A stretch of DNA of 34,718 bases from assembly GCA_947177755.1 (NCBI GenBank), contig CAMWVV010000006.1, positions 1 to 34,718 on the forward strand. Direction: 5' to 3'. The notes beneath the pieces are model-generated. The model was not told the origin of the DNA, ran no database searches, and saw nothing but the letters and a program-made list of their open reading frames with translations. Below, piece by piece: positions 2,577 to 15,210 of this stretch. Numbering within the stretch: the stretch's first letter is position 1; every line of letters starts with the position of its first letter. Source of the stretch: an uncultured Ruminococcus sp. Lineage in GTDB: Bacteria; Bacillota; Clostridia; Oscillospirales; Ruminococcaceae. Position numbers and translations under genes: made by a program.

Positions 2577-5500
2577 TTATTTATTGTATGTTACCCACTG
2601 ATAACGTGCTGTAAGAGGTGTTTTGCCGTTGAAAGGATTAAGCCATTCGTCAACAGTTATTCCGGGCCATACATTCATCATGATTTTTCCGGCAGTTGAC
2701 GGAATATCACTTGTTGCTTTATATACTTCCTTGCCGTCAACATACCATGTTATGTGGTCGGGCTGCCAGTCAAAACCATATGTGTGGAATCCCTCTGAAG
2801 CGTCAAAGCCGAGGTCATACATATACTCATGATTTCCGACACCGTTTGTATAATAGTTAAGCTGTACTTTTGTTGTATCCTTGCCGAGAATCTCAATGTC
2901 GATTTCGTCCCAAGGGTTATTGTCTGTTGGTCCTGTATAGGTAAAGAACGAAGATACAACACCGTCATTCTTTATAGCCTGCATTGAAGTTTCATAATAG
3001 CCGTACTGGTAAAAATCCTGAGTTCTGTACTCTGCACCTGAATAATTATATTTTCCTGAATGGTCTTTATCAATGGTGAGATTGAGTACACCGCCGTCAA
3101 AAGAAGTATTCTGCTTATACCAGCCACAGTCGAAACAGCTTCCGTTTGTCCAGCCGTCTGAAGCAAAGAATACAGGTGTTTCACCCTTTCTGAAATCGGC
3201 AACTACTGTTGCTTTGTCGTTCATTGGTGTACCGTAATCTTTAATTCCCGAAACAGACGGTGAATAAGATGTTGCTGTAGTTGTAGTAGTGGTCTTCTCC
3301 GAAACAGATGTAGTTGTTACAGCAGTAGTCGTTGTTGTTGTCACGTCGGGCGTTTCGCTTGAGGAATCGTTTTCCAGACTGTCATAATCGAAATCATCAT
3401 AAAGCGGAAGGTCTTTGGCGGAAAGTGTTTTTGATTCAACATACTGAATTACCAAAGCGTCTTTTATTGTAATGCCATCTCCGTGGTTTGCAACATCAGC
3501 ATTTATTTTACCCTGTGCAGAAAGTTTATATTTGTCGGGGTTCGCTATTGACTGCATTATAAGTACAGCGTCGTTAATACCTACTTCTCCGTCTTCATCT
3601 GCATCGCCCCAAAGAATATTATTGTCATCGTTCTGTGCGGGACTGCTTTCTGTAAGAGTAAGGAGATAAGTAAGAGGTGAGTTCCAGTAAATAGTTATTT
3701 CATTTGTCGAATAGCTTTCGGAATTGTCAACATAGCACTTTGCAGGCGGTAAATCACGACAATATGCCTTTGCCGCACTGTCTTCAAGAGCTGAGTTTAC
3801 ACCGCCTACAAGCATACCTTTCATAGCGGTCTCTTTAGCCATTGACGGTCTGTGGTGGGGATTCTGCGGTGATACTGTTCCGAAACCTGTCACAAAACAT
3901 TCACCAATAGGATTTACACCTAAAAGATAATCAAGCTGACCCTGTGCGTTGTCAAGGTATTTCTGTTCGCCTGTCAGCTGATAAGCAACACCAAGAATAA
4001 TACCAGAATTGGCAACAGTCATATTACTGCCCCAGTTGAATTTTGTCTGTGATACGCCGTAGGCGGAGCTTTCGGAAACTGATACGAATTTATCAGCCTG
4101 TGTTATAATGCTGTTGCAGGCATTTTTATAGATGTCAGATTCCTTGTCTATACCTTCCATTGTGGCAATAGCAATGTTACCATAGTCGCCGACTGTTGCC
4201 CAGTCAAGACCCGTTGCAGATGATACATCTGAAAGATAGCCGTTATCACCTGTTGCACGGTAAAGCTGTAAAGATGCCCAGTAAATTTCATCTCTTGCAT
4301 TCCTGTCTTCATAAGCACCCGTTGTAATATCATCGGGATTTGCAAGATAAAGCTCGTTCGGGTTTGCTTTTGCCCACGCATAAGCCTTTTTGGCAGCTTC
4401 AAGGCAGGTATTCGCAAAGTTTGCGTCAACGTCCTTGTAAACTTCATAGGCAAGAGCCATAGATGCAGCAAAGTCAGCAGTGGAAGTTGTTGTTTCAGGC
4501 ATTACAATAAGCGGTTTTGTTTCCTTTTCGGGCATTACATATCCTGGGAAAGTATCGCAGGTAACCTTATGATAAACACCGCCTGTATTCTTGTTCTGCA
4601 TTTTCAGCATCCATTCAAGTTCATAACGGGCTTCGTCAAGAACGTCAGCAGTACCGTTTCCGCTTTCGGGAATACCTATATTGTCGCTGTACATTTCAGG
4701 ATTTGCCTTATAAGCATAGAGCAGGTCAGCAACTGCCTTTGCAGCAGGAACTACATAACGACCATAGTCGCCAGCATCATGCCAACCGCCGCTTACGTCA
4801 ATCTTCTGGTCTGTATGATAGATAGTTGCGATTGTATCATGACATGAAGCATGACCGAAAGTCTCATCTTTTACTTCAGTTCCGCAACGCTGTAAATACA
4901 GCATTCTTATACTGTCGTCAAGCAGATTGTTGTAAACTTTGTCAGAGATTTCAAAAACATATGAGTCATCAAGTCCGCCGTATGAGATGTAATATCTTCC
5001 TGGAGTTTTAACCTCTGAAAAATCAGCTTTATAGTTTGTTTCATTAGCCAGATTATTATTGATTGCCTCTGAAACAACACCATGATACACTACTTCATTT
5101 GTATCAGCATTTATAACTGAAAATTCATTTGTATTTACAGTATCAGCGTTTTTGATTACAGCAAATTTCTTTGAATCAGGTCTATAGCCCACCTGATTAG
5201 TAACTATCTGCGGTTCATAAGGACGTGACGCACTGTAGTCAACATTGCTGTCGTCAATGAGTTCAAGTGAAACATTGTCAAGGTAAATTGTATGTTCAGG
5301 AAGTTCACCGTCTTGTTTCTGTAATCCGCAGTTGAAACAGAATTTTGTCATGATGTCTGTTTCCTCTTCCATTGTAAACTCATAATCAATAGTCTGAGGC
5401 TCTGTTGTAACATCAATACCTTTCCAAGTATAAGCCTGATATGTGCCGCCGTTCTGCTGAATCATGGACTCAACATAGCGTGGAATGGTAGCTGAAATGT

Positions 5501-5804
5501 CAAATTTAAGACGATATACACCGTTCTGATAAAGCGGAACTATATCATAGAACATCTGTACAGCATAATTGAGCGTACCCTGCTTTGTAACATTAAGTGC
5601 AAGCCTGCCGTTATCTGTAGTAAGAGTACAAGCACCGCCACTCTCCTTATATGTACCCCAGCCGAAAGTACCGCTTTCAAAAGTTGAATTTTCAATTATA
5701 TTTGACGCTGCAATTGCAGGTACAGATATAACAGGAAGTGCCGATGCCATGACACTGCACATTGCAAAAACTGCTGCACAGCGTTTCAATATATTTTTTT
5801 TCAT
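2577..5804 (-). CDS. Secreted cellulosomal enzyme: CBM4/9 - GH9 - dockerin - GH16
   Basis: A 1075-residue bifunctional plant-polysaccharide hydrolase, secreted and built for cellulosome assembly. Visible order: signal peptide (1-33, MKKN...IPAIAA-like), a CBM4/9-like beta-sandwich (about 35-185), an Ig-like CelD_N domain (about 197-288), and a GH9 catalytic domain (about 290-720). The GH9 domain has DAGDYG at 343-348 (catalytic Asp pair), NPHHRPS at 648-654, and acid Glu702 in NEITIYW. A type I-like dockerin with two calcium-loop/helix repeats (734-759 and 768-792) follows, then a Thr/Ser linker (820-850). Last is a GH16 domain (about 858-1075) with catalytic EIDIE at 967-971, typical of beta-1,3-1,4-glucanases (lichenases). 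Expected substrates are cellulose or xyloglucan for GH9 and mixed-linkage glucan for GH16. A dockerin between two catalytic modules recalls R. flavefaciens XynD (GH11-CBM22-Doc-GH16). Ribosome binding site GAGAGGAG lies about 9 nt upstream of the ATG. The gene appears monocistronic. Confidence 0.95.
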   Translation of the reverse strand: MKKNILKRCAAVFAMCSVMASALPVISVPAIAASNIIENSTFESGTFGWGTYKESGGACTLTTDNGRLALNVTKQGTLNYAVQMFYDIVPLYQNGVYRLKFDISATIPRYVESMIQQNGGTYQAYTWKGIDVTTEPQTIDYEFTMEEETDIMTKFCFNCGLQKQDGELPEHTIYLDNVSLELIDDSNVDYSASRPYEPQIVTNQVGYRPDSKKFAVIKNADTVNTNEFSVINADTNEVVYHGVVSEAINNNLANETNYKADFSEVKTPGRYYISYGGLDDSYVFEISDKVYNNLLDDSIRMLYLQRCGTEVKDETFGHASCHDTIATIYHTDQKIDVSGGWHDAGDYGRYVVPAAKAVADLLYAYKANPEMYSDNIGIPESGNGTADVLDEARYELEWMLKMQNKNTGGVYHKVTCDTFPGYVMPEKETKPLIVMPETTTSTADFAASMALAYEVYKDVDANFANTCLEAAKKAYAWAKANPNELYLANPDDITTGAYEDRNARDEIYWASLQLYRATGDNGYLSDVSSATGLDWATVGDYGNIAIATMEGIDKESDIYKNACNSIITQADKFVSVSESSAYGVSQTKFNWGSNMTVANSGIILGVAYQLTGEQKYLDNAQGQLDYLLGVNPIGECFVTGFGTVSPQNPHHRPSMAKETAMKGMLVGGVNSALEDSAAKAYCRDLPPAKCYVDNSESYSTNEITIYWNSPLTYLLTLTESSPAQNDDNNILWGDADEDGEVGINDAVLIMQSIANPDKYKLSAQGKINADVANHGDGITIKDALVIQYVESKTLSAKDLPLYDDFDYDSLENDSSSETPDVTTTTTTAVTTTSVSEKTTTTTTATSYSPSVSGIKDYGTPMNDKATVVADFRKGETPVFFASDGWTNGSCFDCGWYKQNTSFDGGVLNLTIDKDHSGKYNYSGAEYRTQDFYQYGYYETSMQAIKNDGVVSSFFTYTGPTDNNPWDEIDIEILGKDTTKVQLNYYTNGVGNHEYMYDLGFDASEGFHTYGFDWQPDHITWYVDGKEVYKATSDIPSTAGKIMMNVWPGITVDEWLNPFNGKTPLTARYQWVTYNK

Positions 5805-8507: not shown

Positions 8508-8593
8508 ATATTTAATATATAAACGGCTCGGTAATTATTAAAGCACGTTTAAAGTCTTTTCTATTTATGAAAAGAATACAGGAGGATTTTCCA

Positions 8594-9781
8594 ATGGCTG
8601 AAACCAGATTTTTAAAAACAGTGACTTTCGGCGGATATGACAAGGAAGATGTTGAAAAACATCTTTCAGCACTGTATTCCCGAATTTCCGAACTTGAAAG
8701 CGAACTGAAAGAAACAAAACTTTTCCTTGAAAAATACAAGACAGGAACAGAAACGGAAAAAATATATGAATCTGCCCTTGAAGAAGAAAGAAAACGACTT
8801 GCCGAATGTCAGGCGGAAAAAAGGTCAGCGGATGAAAAAATTCAGATGCTGACAGCTGACAACGAAGAGAAAGAAAAAGAAATAACAAATCTGAAATATT
8901 CCGTCGCCGAACTTGAGCAGACTCTTTCAGATGCGGATATTAAACTTTCGTCAATGTCCGAAAAAGACGATGCCGCTGTTTTCGGTGCGGTTTTTGCGAC
9001 CGCTAAAAAATCGGCTTCAACAATAATTGATGAGGCTAAAAAGAAAGCCGCTGAAATTATATATGAAGCCGAAACCTACGCCGCCGAAATGACGGCAGAA
9101 GTAAATAATGAGTCTAAACAGCTTAAACACGCCTCCGTCAATATGAAAGCTCTGATTCTTGAAGACGTAATCCGACTAAGTGAAAAAATGTCTGAAATGA
9201 AAGACATTTTTGAAAAGTCTGAAAAAATACTTTCAGATACTCGGAACACTATTGAAAAGGACGGTGTGCCTGTTTTCTGTATTCCAGAAAAGTTCACACC
9301 CGACCTCCCCGAAAAACCCGTTTACGAAAAAACAGACTATTCATATAACAAGGAAACTGCCGAAAAAGTGCATGATGAATATGACGAATATGCTAACGTT
9401 CCCGATTTTGACGAACTCGAAGAAGTCGATATTTTCGGTGATGACGACGACGATTTTGACCTTTCGGGTCTTGCACGTCCCACTCAGAATACCGCTTCAA
9501 ACAAAGGCGGTATAAACCTTGACGCACTCACCAGACAGGCAGAAGAATTTGTTGCCATGAGCAAAAAGCCGAAAAAAGAAAGTATCGGTCTTGACGAACT
9601 CGCAAAACAGGCAGCTGCACTTGATGATGTTACGCAAAAGAAAAACAACAAAAGTATTGATTTGGAAGAACTTGCACGGCAGGCAACAGCTCTTGATGAC
9701 GTTCCTGCCAAAAAGAAAAACAGCGGAAGTATTGATTTAGAAGAACTCGCACGACAAGCCGCCGCTCTTGATGACAACTGA
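8594..9781 (+). CDS. DivIVA-like coiled-coil protein with C-terminal tandem repeats
   Basis: A 395-residue cytoplasmic protein. The start ATG 8594 has CAGGAGGA at 8579-8586; an in-frame ATG at 8567 lacks such a site. The first 30 residues (FLKTVTFGGYDKEDVEKHLSALYSR) look like the membrane-targeting head of DivIVA/GpsB-type proteins. Long charged coiled coils follow at about 28-125 and 140-220, the second rich in Ala/Lys/Glu. An acidic segment (266-290, with DDDDD) leads to four repeats of a short helix of the type IDLEELARQAAALDD at 307-318, 331-346, 355-370 and 380-394, separated by Lys/Asn linkers. It is followed 32 nt later by a sensory-type [FeFe]-hydrogenase homologue. The pairing suggests a scaffold or polar-localisation role for that sensor (inference). 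Its function is otherwise unknown. Confidence 0.85.
   Translation: MAETRFLKTVTFGGYDKEDVEKHLSALYSRISELESELKETKLFLEKYKTGTETEKIYESALEEERKRLAECQAEKRSADEKIQMLTADNEEKEKEITNLKYSVAELEQTLSDADIKLSSMSEKDDAAVFGAVFATAKKSASTIIDEAKKKAAEIIYEAETYAAEMTAEVNNESKQLKHASVNMKALILEDVIRLSEKMSEMKDIFEKSEKILSDTRNTIEKDGVPVFCIPEKFTPDLPEKPVYEKTDYSYNKETAEKVHDEYDEYANVPDFDELEEVDIFGDDDDDFDLSGLARPTQNTASNKGGINLDALTRQAEEFVAMSKKPKKESIGLDELAKQAAALDDVTQKKNNKSIDLEELARQATALDDVPAKKKNSGSIDLEELARQAAALDDN
9512..9775 (+). repeat. Coding tandem repeats (LARQAAALDD type)
   Basis: Four copies of a roughly 45-75 nt unit encoding (I)DL(D/E)ELA(R/K)QAAALDD with variable Lys/Asn-rich spacers. The last two copies are the most alike, and a degenerate fifth copy (FDLSGLARP) precedes them. 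The similarity is clear at protein level and partial at DNA level, so unit number could vary between strains. Confidence 0.85.
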
Positions 9782-9813
9782 AACACAGTATAATTTTAAG
9801 GAGTTTTTTGTAT

Positions 9814-11496
9814 ATGAATGAAATAATTATAGTAAAACCTGAAAAATGCGTGGGCTGTAATGCCTGTGTGAGAAACTGTCCTGCTCCCGAAGCAAATATA
9901 ACAAAAATGCTTGACGACGGCAGATTTGTTACAACGGTTGACCCGAGCAGATGTATTACGTGCGGTGAATGTGTAAGAACCTGCAATCACGGTGCGAGAG
10001 ACTATATAGATGATACAGAAGCCTGTATGTCAAGAATTTCAAAGAACAAAATGATTATTCTTGCAGCACCCGCAATAAAGTCAGTATTTCCGACACAGTG
10101 GAAAGGTATACTTGACTGGTTCAGAAATAAAGGCTGTATAATTTATGACGTTTCTTTTGGTGCGGATATATGTACATGGGCTCACCTGCGTACCATTGAA
10201 TCGGGAAAGGCAGAAACCAATCTTATCACACAGCCGTGTGCGGCAATTGTAAAGTACATAGAAATATATCAGCCAAGACTTTTAAGAAATCTGTCACCAA
10301 TTCACAGCCCTATTGCCTGTGCGGTAACTTATATAAAAAAATATATGAACAGAAACAATCATATAGCCGTCCTTTCTCCGTGTATCGCAAAGAAAACGGA
10401 ATTTACCGAAACGGGTCTTGTTGACTATAACGTGACTTTCAGTAAGCTTAAAGAATATTTTGAAAGAAACGATATAAAAATACCTTCAAATTCAATTCAT
10501 GACTTTGAATATCCGTTTGATGACCAGCAGGGACAGGTAGGTGCGGTTTATCCACGTCCTGGCGGACTGCGTGATAATCTTTGGCTTCATAATCCCGATA
10601 TTAATATTACAACGTCCGAAGGCGTTCACAAGGTTTATCCTGAACTTGATATGTATGCAAGTATGCCCGAGTACAAACACCCCGAAGTGTTTGATGTTCT
10701 TTCATGTGAATTTGGCTGTAATGTAGGTCCTGCGTCGGGTACTTCACAGACCGTTTTTGACGTAATGGCTACCATGAGGGAAGTCGAGAAAGAGGCTAAA
10801 AAGCGACGTAAAACAGGTATTTTCCGTGGCGGTGAAGACAGACTGTTCAGAAAATTCGACGAGGAACTCAGAATCTCAGACTTTATAAGAAGTTACAAAC
10901 CTACAACCCCCTCCCCAATTCCTACGGAAAAACAGCTTGATGCGGTTTATGAAATGATGGGCAAGCATACGGAAGCCGACCGCAATTATAACTGTCATGC
11001 GTGTGGATACCGTTCATGTCGTGATATGGCTATAGCTATATGCAGAGGTCTCAATACTCCCGACAACTGTATTGTACACGCAAAATCAGTACTTCTTGCA
11101 CGCCACAGCGAACTTGCAACCCAGCATGAAAAACTTGCTGAAATCACCAATGAATGTCTTGAACTCTCCGACAAGCTGAAACGTGACATAAAAAAGATTA
11201 CCGACAACATGAACGCCATCGGCGAATCCACAACAAAAACAAGTCAGAAGGCAGGACAGGTAAACAGTCTGCTTAACAATATCGTCACTTTCTGCAACAG
11301 TAATGAAAGTATGGACGCAGACAGTGTAAAACAGATGGTAAATATTCTTGAAATGACTATCAGGGCATTCAGTGTACTTGACGACAACGTGAACACCACA
11401 AACACAAGTACAGAAATTATAAATAGCTCTATTTCCGAAATTACCCAGCTCATCGACGAAATAAATATCACTCTCCACAAAACCGAAAAGAAATAA
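9814..11496 (+). CDS. Sensory-type [FeFe]-hydrogenase homologue with C-terminal coiled coil
   Basis: A 560-residue Fe-S protein. Two 4Fe-4S ferredoxin motifs stand at C12/C15/C18/C22 and C47/C50/C53/C57. The H-cluster domain follows with all four ligand cysteines apparently present: C142 in TQPCAAIVKYIE (L1), C190 in SPCIAKKTEF (L2), and C298 and C302 in SCEFGCNVGP (L3). The usual proton-relay Cys of TSCCP is replaced by Pro, as expected for regulatory rather than catalytic enzymes. A further Cys cluster, CHACGYRSC at 394-402 with C410/C419, resembles the FeS domain seen in such sensors. The last 130 residues form a chemoreceptor-like coiled coil with no PAS or kinase domain. It may sense H2 or redox state and signal through the adjacent DivIVA-like protein (inference). 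Start ATG 9814 fits AAGGAG at 9798-9803. Confidence 0.85.
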   Translation: MNEIIIVKPEKCVGCNACVRNCPAPEANITKMLDDGRFVTTVDPSRCITCGECVRTCNHGARDYIDDTEACMSRISKNKMIILAAPAIKSVFPTQWKGILDWFRNKGCIIYDVSFGADICTWAHLRTIESGKAETNLITQPCAAIVKYIEIYQPRLLRNLSPIHSPIACAVTYIKKYMNRNNHIAVLSPCIAKKTEFTETGLVDYNVTFSKLKEYFERNDIKIPSNSIHDFEYPFDDQQGQVGAVYPRPGGLRDNLWLHNPDINITTSEGVHKVYPELDMYASMPEYKHPEVFDVLSCEFGCNVGPASGTSQTVFDVMATMREVEKEAKKRRKTGIFRGGEDRLFRKFDEELRISDFIRSYKPTTPSPIPTEKQLDAVYEMMGKHTEADRNYNCHACGYRSCRDMAIAICRGLNTPDNCIVHAKSVLLARHSELATQHEKLAEITNECLELSDKLKRDIKKITDNMNAIGESTTKTSQKAGQVNSLLNNIVTFCNSNESMDADSVKQMVNILEMTIRAFSVLDDNVNTTNTSTEIINSSISEITQLIDEINITLHKTEKK

Positions 11497-12861: not shown

Positions 12862-12892
12862 TTTAATAATCCTCCTTTAAAAAATTTATATA

Positions 12893-12930: not shown

Positions 12931-13149
12931 TTAATCTTCTTCGTCGGGGTCAACTGATGTTTCGGTAGGCTGCATACAAGCACCTTTTGCACCGCAGTCA
13001 GTACTGTTTACCGTATCAATTTTCATACCCCCGCCGTCTTTATCGGTAGCGATATTCACATGACCGCTTCCCTGAGCCATAAGCTGGTCAATAAGGTCAG
13101 CAAGCTCTTCGGGACTGTCACTTTTGCCGAGCATATCCGGAGTTACCAT
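12931..13149 (-). CDS. Small pfl-operon protein resembling the PFL linker region
   Basis: A 72-residue ORF starting 3 nt after the stop of the PFL core and in the same reading frame (TAA TAT ATG). AAGGGTGA at the end of the core gene can act as ribosome binding site. Residues 2-33 (TPDMLGK..., ELADLIDQLMAQGSGHVNI) resemble the stretch that in intact PFL joins the core to the radical domain (IPDALGK..., LLDGYF..GG.HLNVNV), but the radical-Gly block is absent. The rest is Gly/Asp-rich with C52 and C58 (CGAKGAC) and an acidic tail. It may be a degenerate duplicate or an accessory subunit of the split enzyme. I do not know a named family for it. Confidence 0.75.
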   Translation of the reverse strand: MVTPDMLGKSDSPEELADLIDQLMAQGSGHVNIATDKDGGGMKIDTVNSTDCGAKGACMQPTETSVDPDEED

Positions 13150-13152
13150 ATA

Positions 13153-15210
13153 TTATTCACCCTTAAGAGCGTCAATATCAATATCACCTGCGAAAACTTC
13201 CATATCCTTGCCGAGAGCATCGGGGATAATGGAGAATGTATTTGAGATACCGTCCTGAGCGTGTCTGAAAGGAATCTTTGCAACAGAAGAAAGTGAAGCT
13301 GCCGCACCGTGAGTATCTCTGCCGTGCATCGGGTTTGCTCCCGGAGCAAGCGGAACGCCTTCCTTACGTCCGTCAGGTGTGTTGCCTGTCTTTTTACCGT
13401 AAACAACGTTTGAAGTTATTGTGAGGATAGACATTGTAGGAACACCGTCACGGTATGTATGATGTTTTCTAATCATATCCATAAATGTACGTACAACCAT
13501 AACAGCGAGGTCATCAACCCTGTCGTCGTTGTTGCCGTATTTCGGGAAATCTCCCTCAATTTCATAATCAACTACAACGCCGTTTTCGTCACGTATACAC
13601 TTAACCTTAGCGTACTTGATAGCTGAAAGTGAGTCTGCAACAACGGAAAGACCTGCGATACCTGTAGCGAAATAACGCTTTACATCTCTGTCGTGGAGAG
13701 CCATCTGGATTCTCTCATAGCTGTACTTGTCGTGCATATAGTGAATAATGTTAAGAGTATTTACATAAAGACCTGCAAGCCATTCCATCATGTTCTTATA
13801 CTTTTCCCATACATCATCATAGTCAAGGTAATCGCCCTCAACAGGTCTGTACTTAGGACCTACCTGCACTTTCATTCTTTCGTCAACACCGCCATTTATA
13901 GCATAAAGGAGGCACTTGGCGAGGTTTGCTCTTGCACCGAAGAACTGCATTTCCTTACCTACTCTCATTGAAGATACACAGCAGGCAATAGCATAGTCGT
14001 CACCGTGAGTAACTCTCATCATGTCGTCATTCTCGTACTGGATTGAAGAAGTCTTGATAGACATCTTAGCACAGTATTCCTTAAACTTTCTCGGGAGCTT
14101 CTGTGACCAGAGGACAGTCATATTCGGCTCGGGAGCAGTTCCGAGGTTTTCAAGAGTATGGAGATAACGGAAGCTGTTCTTTGTTACAAAGTGGTGACCG
14201 TTAACATCAACACCGCCGATTGACTCAGTAACCCATGTCGGGTCGCCAGAGAAGAGTGAATTATATTCGGGAGTTCTTGCAAATTTAACAATACGGAGCT
14301 TCATGATGAAGTGGTCGATGATTTCCTGTGCCTCCTCTTCAGTAATAACACCGTTGTCAAGGTCACGCTGAATATAAACATCAAGGAAAGTTGAAGTACG
14401 TCCGAGTGACATAGCAGCACCGTTCTGCTCCTTAACAGCAGCGAGGTAACCGAAATAGAGCCACTGAACTGCTTCCTTAGCGTTCTTTGCAGGCTTGGAA
14501 ATGTCAAAACCGTAAATTTCACCGAGTTTCTTGAGTTCGCCCAAAGCACGAACCTGCTCGGCAAGTTCTTCACGAAGTCTGATATTCTTTGAAGTCATTC
14601 TTATAAGAGAAGTTTCAATCTGATGTTTCTTGTCGGCAATAAGATTGTCGATACCATAGAGGGCAACTCTTCTGTAGTCGCCGATAATACGACCTCTGCC
14701 GTAAGCGTCGGGAAGACCTGTAATGATAGCCGACTTACGAGCCATACGCATTTCAGGTGTGTAAGCGTCAAAAACGCCCTGATTGTGAGTTTTGCGGTAC
14801 TCTGTAAAAATCTTTACAACTTCGTCGTCAACCTTATAGCCGTTCTGTTCGCAGGCATTCATTGCCATTCTGATACCGCCGAAAGGCTGGAGTGAACGCT
14901 TGAAAGGCTTATCAGTCTGAACACCGACGATTTTTTCAAGGTCTTTATTGAGATAACCAGCATCGTGGGAAGTGATAGTGGAAACAATCTTTGTGTCCAT
15001 ATCAAGAACACCGCCGGCTTCACGTTCCTGCTTGGTGAGTTCCATAACCTGCTCCCAGAGCTTTGTAGTAGCTTCTGTAGGGCCTGCAAGGAAGCTTTCG
15101 TCACCGTCATAGGGAGTGTAATTCTTCTTGATGAAGTCGCTGACATTAATGCCGAGACTCCATCTGCCGGGAGTAAAACCTTCCCATTCTTTTGCAAATT
15201 CCATAGTCAT
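13153..15210 (-). CDS. pflB: Pyruvate formate-lyase core subunit lacking the glycyl-radical domain
   Basis: Catalytic body of pyruvate formate-lyase, which converts pyruvate and CoA to acetyl-CoA and formate without oxygen. The active-site cysteine pair is C410-C411 in [12 protein letters not shown]. Other family blocks present are [39 protein letters not shown] and [10 protein letters not shown]. At 685 residues it stops right after [10 protein letters not shown] plus a short acidic tail ([13 protein letters not shown]). The last 75 or so residues of ordinary PFLs, including the radical Gly, are therefore missing and are encoded separately at 12619-12861. No pflA activase gene is nearby. The operon has a consensus promoter with a perfect palindrome just upstream. 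Ribosome binding site AAAAGGAG is about 11 nt before the ATG; an internal ATG two codons later is an alternative. Confidence 0.95.

Follow-up and report, generated by a model that had tools for sequence, protein, structure and literature searches.

Pyruvate formate-lyase (PFL) has a central place in the fermentation carried out by gut anaerobes. In the stretch of Ruminococcus DNA analysed here (34,718 nucleotides, referred to below as the window), the enzyme is encoded as a core and a separate glycyl radical subunit, and a 72-residue open reading frame (ORF) lies between the two. The preliminary description of this locus had offered three explanations for the ORF: a relic of the event that split the PFL gene, a docking adaptor for the radical subunit, or an extension of the core produced by stop-codon readthrough. 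We asked which of these, if any, accounts for it.

The split PFL locus and the status of the ORF

All three parts lie on the minus strand, in the order PFL core (15210-13153), ORF (13149-12931) and GrcA3-type radical subunit (12861-12619). The core, of 685 residues, matches TIGR01255 over positions 1-665 with 1131.6 bits. Its Cys410-Cys411 pair (13978-13983) is the invariant equivalent of the PFL active-site pair C418/C419, whose role in E. coli is described in PMC12338860. The core ends in a 17-residue C-terminal extension (13156-13206) that is free of cysteine here and holds a Cys pair in most cores lacking the ORF; F673 and G675 of this extension are conserved in split PFLs but not in intact PFLs. 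The radical subunit, of 80 residues and with an RVSGYA loop, scores 165 bits against NF038360 (cut-off 158 bits), and direct reading of the sequence places its Shine-Dalgarno, AAAGGAGG, at 12871-12878. Since no second NF038360 match was found in the source genome at E<=1e-12, the split PFL is apparently the only PFL of its kind there. The PFL activase is encoded away from this locus (G000:C32).

The ORF encodes MVTPDMLGKSDSPEELADLIDQLMAQGSGHVNIATDKDGGGMKIDTVNSTDCGAKGACMQPTETSVDPDEED. As originally described, it follows the core in the same frame and one codon apart, the core's stop codon TAA being followed by TAT and then by the ORF's ATG; the radical block is indeed absent, with no RVSGYA loop and with two Cys and an acidic end instead. 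A Shine-Dalgarno-like sequence for the ORF, AAGGGTG (13158-13164), lies within the last codons of the core. Searches of Pfam and NCBIfam with the ORF returned nothing relevant, and the window's own ORF gave no NF038360 match, so that it lies under the cut-off of that family.

Homologues of the ORF occupy the same position, between core and GrcA3, in nearly all of 80 related Ruminococcus loci with sufficient sequence, the exceptions being L061 and L062 (contig ends too early). Over close-clade pairs, the median dN/dS was 0.129 for the ORF versus 0.047 for GrcA3, which points to purifying selection and not to neutral evolution. Among the 69 homologues that start with ATG, 68 begin at -14 to +3 nucleotides from the core stop and 64 have a Shine-Dalgarno-like sequence upstream. 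The in-frame TAA-TAT-ATG junction proved to be a local feature, as the ORF lies in frame 0, 1 or 2 relative to the core at 10, 30 and 38 of 78 loci, respectively. Together these data indicate that the ORF is a real gene, conserved and held under purifying selection.

Two of the three earlier explanations fare poorly against these results. Readthrough was suggested by the arrangement in the window, where the ORF is in the core's frame and a single codon away. However, because the frame relative to the core is variable, readthrough is not the mechanism; the homologues' own Shine-Dalgarno-like sequences, their starts near the core stop and their presence at other loci in some genomes also argue against it. 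It is refuted as a general mechanism, and we consider it extremely improbable. A functionless relic of the PFL-splitting event is refuted as well: although the ORF's location coincides with the split and its sequence is like a portion of the radical domain, its dN/dS is low, its Cys pair is conserved throughout the family, and the gene is kept at unrelated loci (L094, L114, L149 and L150).

The two halves of the ORF protein

The ORF family has the consensus ELADLIDxLMxxGSGHVNI...GLKVxTVxSTDxCGxKGACCQPTExxxDxDE. In the window, residues 13-34 (13048-13113, minus strand) comprise a helix and a strand, PEELADLIDQLMAQGSGHVNIA, which are homologous to the start of GrcA, that is, to the N-terminal helix of GrcA3 and the PFL C-terminal domain and to a strand matching PFL beta-10. 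Aligning the first half with the start of GrcA3 by hhalign (A1 versus A2) gave 28 columns at E 8.5e-5, and 8 of 38 family members matched NF038360 on their own (E<=0.01). Positions ~4-33 of the A1 and A3 profiles yielded secondary matches in many genomes, mainly to GrcA3 or to open frames of ~750 residues (intact-PFL C-termini); the one checked in G060 was the same PFL that NF038360 finds. In E. coli PFL the corresponding region is beta-10, which is duplicated in YfiD (PMC8683613).

In the preliminary description, the first 33 residues had been seen as a mimic of the linker of intact PFL (TPDMLGK). A likeness of this kind is present in one clade, where P[DN]xLG occurs near the start (16 of 94 unique homologues), but it is not family-wide, and an origin from that linker finds no support outside this clade. 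The conserved relationship is instead with the first ~30 residues of GrcA and PFL beta-10.

Modelling of the ORF family alone with AlphaFold2 (pLDDT 61.9, pTM 0.35) was usable for secondary structure only. It placed a helix at residues 13-25 and strands at 30-35 and 42-47 with a pLDDT of ~70, and the C-terminal end was of low confidence. A PDB fold search with this model returned nothing below E 1, and a profile search of PDB sequences with the ORF family gave no relevant match. When core and ORF were modelled from alignment A7 as one continuous chain, with Gly in place of the stop, the pLDDT was 47.6 and no docking geometry was obtained. The mixed alignments A4-A6 were left out of the analysis because MAFFT had misplaced the short proteins.

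The second half carries the cysteines. In the window these lie in residues 52-58 (CGAKGAC, 12976-12996), followed by the C-terminal end, residues 63-72 (ETSVDPDEED, 12934-12963), which is acidic in most homologues. The RVSGYA loop is absent from the homologues in A1 and A3, and all 94 unique homologues have two Cys within a span of 8 residues. One tail Cys, the second of the pair in the window, is invariant in these alignments, and where the upstream Cys is missing, the homologue has adjacent Cys residues (CC) instead. Position and spacing otherwise vary freely; just two Cys are present in 31 of the 94, and three to four in some. ORFs of distant genomes have tails like those of the cores that carry the Cys pair themselves (described below), for example ACQTPTLHEGLDRDE (L115). 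Mimicry of the core's ACC active-site loop by the ORF was also considered and was rejected because the second Cys of 'ACC' is not conserved.

Cis and trans forms of the tail

Within the bacterial family, 41 of 299 genomes contain the ORF, and all 41 have a free-standing GrcA3, which is found in 55 of the 299. No full-length ORF match was obtained in those of the 299 genomes that have intact PFL only; a further match in G296, over 28 positions at E 0.01, was judged to be noise. Outside the family, the ORF stands beside GrcA3 in G382 (another family, same order) and in G836 (same class). In the sampled genomes, then, the ORF is restricted to split PFL.

The distribution of cysteines in the C-terminal tails of the cores depends on whether the ORF is adjacent. 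None of the 97 cores with an adjacent ORF has a tail Cys, with 0 in 1956 tail residues where about 21 were expected (P 9e-10). Among the 34 cores that have no ORF next to them, 28 have at least two tail Cys, one (L119) has a single one and five have none. In such cis tails, of which DCSNGACMSPTLFEGLDTDKE (L117), CENGACFSPTLFEGLDRD (L106) and GCESGGCLSPTLFEGLD (L133) are examples, the Cys pair lies in a short C-terminal stretch, often as (A)CxxPT. Positions 48-69 of the A3 profile match the cis tail at the expected place in G107, G466 and G318, with E values (0.65, 0.025 and 0.29) that are weak taken alone. The exclusion between cis and trans forms has a Fisher P of 3e-24, calculated without correction for phylogeny, a value that overstates the evidence because the loci are not independent.

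A better argument comes from repeated switches between the forms and from a test of prediction. For all five cores that lack both tail Cys and an adjacent ORF (L094, L114, L149, L150 and L151), the gene was present elsewhere in the genome. Two of these cases (G112 and G192) were already known: the ORF homologue lies directly behind a dCMP deaminase gene (L094:2598-2798, minus strand; L114:2986-3186, plus strand), and the core and GrcA3 are on another contig that has no ORF beside them. The other three copies, in R. flavefaciens MA2007, G290 and G179, were found by a genome search that tested the cis/trans prediction. The copy in R. flavefaciens MA2007 is in a second split-PFL locus, the copy in G290 was detected at E 5.6e-7, and that in G179 scored weakly (E 0.0185) yet is full-length with CAAGVC. 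Conversely, no full-length trans copy was found at E<=1 in the cis-tail genomes that were checked. For L119, a distant split core, the genome search did not detect the trans gene. R. flavefaciens MA2007 (G959) thus has two split-PFL loci (L061 and L151), one without the ORF and one with it.

In the core tree, cis and trans forms are interleaved, and well-supported branches force at least four changes for the cis state. Cis tails found within the trans clade (L105 GCCE, L111 GCCE, L108/L109 CPSC) look newly gained because their motifs differ. As far as the sequences tell, the two forms are mutually exclusive, and every examined split-PFL relative but one supplies the Cys pair, whether on a protein of its own or as part of the core's C-terminus. 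We read the 72-residue ORF as the trans-encoded form of a dithiol tail that other split cores carry in cis. This repeated exchange of a cis tail for a trans subunit amounts to a clean evolutionary natural experiment.

A separate case is L137 (G123), an undivided 796-residue PFL with the insert ALGK-DSDIFIGCDNC...NLCALLDGY. The core tree places it within the split clade, on a long branch, and core, Cys pair and GrcA seem to have been joined again in it.

Candidate role of the tail

We hold it to be on balance probable that this is a three-part split PFL in which the ORF protein joins a GrcA-like docking half to a redox-capable Cys tail acting as a putative reductant on the active site of the core. 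The ORF protein would be the small subunit of the enzyme. Its first half, as a partial copy of the GrcA N-terminus (helix and beta-10-like strand), would tether it to the core, and its second half would be an acidic, flexible tail whose Cys pair is capable of redox chemistry. This tail could reach into the gap that the exchangeable radical subunit leaves open and act as a reductant there, in a manner similar to that of the C-terminal tail in ribonucleotide reductase (RNR). In doing so it would keep or restore Cys410/Cys411 of the core after oxygen damage, with the Cys-free GrcA3 being swapped as a spare part.

Because GrcA3 has no Cys in any of 70 unique sequences and C410/C411 is invariant, the partner of the tail is most likely the core active site, the radical or an external reductant; a disulfide between tail and GrcA3 was rejected on the former ground. 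The tail's target is probably Cys410/Cys411 and possibly the glycyl radical. According to works cited in PMC8683613, both Gly734 and Cys419 take part in the inactivation of PFL by O2, and in the RNR subunit NrdA a tail Cys pair reduces an active-site disulfide (PMC11143221). Given the RNR parallel and the part of Cys419 in oxygen damage, the reductant or repair role is favoured, with radical quenching as its main rival.

The C-terminus of E. coli NrdA reads ...DDGCESGACKI, and the nearest tail motifs are those of the cis tails L133 (GCESGGC) and L106 (CENGAC). With class I RNR alpha, the split PFLs share a flexible acidic C-terminal extension with a close Cys pair on a radical enzyme that has an active-site Cys pair, a likeness strongest in cis tails such as L133. 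The RNR-type feature was seen across the ORF family, in the proximity of the Cys in 94 of 94 homologues and in the low-confidence end of the model. In RNR, such a tail passes electrons on to an active-site disulfide and is itself re-reduced by thioredoxin or glutaredoxin. In contrast to RNR, the split-PFL tail can occupy a separate protein, and PFL needs no per-turnover reductant. The likeness to NrdA is a short motif and may be convergent. Moreover, the parallel explains the form of the tail better than the need for it, because no active-site disulfide is known to arise in each catalytic cycle of PFL. More tentatively, split PFLs in general might use an RNR-style electron shuttle, in which the active-site Cys pair is re-reduced by a mobile dithiol tail that belongs either to the core or to a separate docking protein; after exposure to O2, both the radical (by a new GrcA3) and the active site (by the tail) could then be repaired without remaking the core. 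We regard this wider scheme as a possibility short of probable.

Dithiols are good hydrogen donors, and the tail might instead be a built-in quencher: by passing a hydrogen atom to GrcA3's glycyl radical, it would bring the enzyme into a safe state, stable to oxygen, ahead of dissociation or cleavage of the radical subunit. Such chemistry would suit the Cys pair, which is tied to the split architecture where the radical subunit may dissociate, and the ORF shares that subunit's docking strand. A dithiol beside the radical would, however, waste activation during normal turnover, and no literature on a tethered quencher of this kind was found in a search of limited coverage; we consider this reading rather unlikely. 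Docking, the remaining proposal of the preliminary description, survives in part. If the ORF mainly substituted for PFL residues 696-733, which are the YfiD recognition element and promote YfiD binding to cleaved PFL (PMC8683613), its Cys would be structural. The homology of its N-terminal half to the docking helix and beta-10 strand of the radical domain agrees with this, but the conserved payload is the two-Cys tail, borne by the core itself in split PFLs that lack the ORF. Since those cis-tail cores keep the Cys pair with no second copy of the helix/beta-10 segment, the pair and not the strand is the shared part, and a mainly docking role is unlikely. Still less probable is a metal-binding subunit with a role comparable to that played in other glycyl radical enzymes by small iron-sulfur subunits. 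Small Cys-containing accessory subunits are known in HPAD, BSS and MASS (PMC12358834), and some homologues have three to four Cys, but 31 of the 94 have only the pair, its position and spacing change freely, and neither a family or structure match nor a conserved set of cluster-ligand Cys was found.

Like GrcA/YfiD (NF038360), the putative dithiol-tail subunit has a homologous N-terminal helix and GxxH(L/V)N(V/I) strand and a partner PFL core without a radical domain of its own; it differs in lacking the glycyl radical loop and the C-terminal helix, in having the Cys pair and acidic end in their place, and in falling under any family cut-off. It represents the same structural segment as PFL 696-733, and core plus ORF resembles a cleaved PFL beside its spare-part protein (PMC8683613), except that the ORF is encoded separately and has a Cys tail at its end. 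Other small Cys-bearing accessory proteins of glycyl radical enzymes, with genes next to that of the large subunit, are HPAD gamma, BSS beta/gamma and MASS beta/gamma/delta (PMC12358834); they hold 4Fe-4S or one Fe, whereas members of the ORF family may have no more than two Cys and show no similarity to them that could be detected. The ORF family is absent from the protein libraries searched. As an accessory subunit of a glycyl radical enzyme it is of a known kind, but its design is unrelated and its dithiol tail is exchangeable between cis and trans; a literature search of limited coverage found no description of split PFL or GrcA3. A naturally modular PFL whose radical subunit can be replaced and whose thiol tail is obligatory would amount to a built-in design for oxygen-damage repair. 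It would assign a function to a protein family that has not been described, and would allow tests of how the active-site cysteines of glycyl radical enzymes are restored or protected.

Three further ORFs of the window were seen in passing. On the minus strand, 2577-5804 encodes 1075 residues that, judged by eye, would comprise a domain of glycoside hydrolase family 9, a dockerin-like stretch in the interior and a domain resembling family 16. On the plus strand, a 404-residue ORF (8567-9781) ends in tandem near-identical repeats (IDLEELARQAAALDD), and a 562-residue ORF (9808-11496) has ferredoxin-like Cys motifs and by eye resembles an iron hydrogenase large-subunit-type protein.
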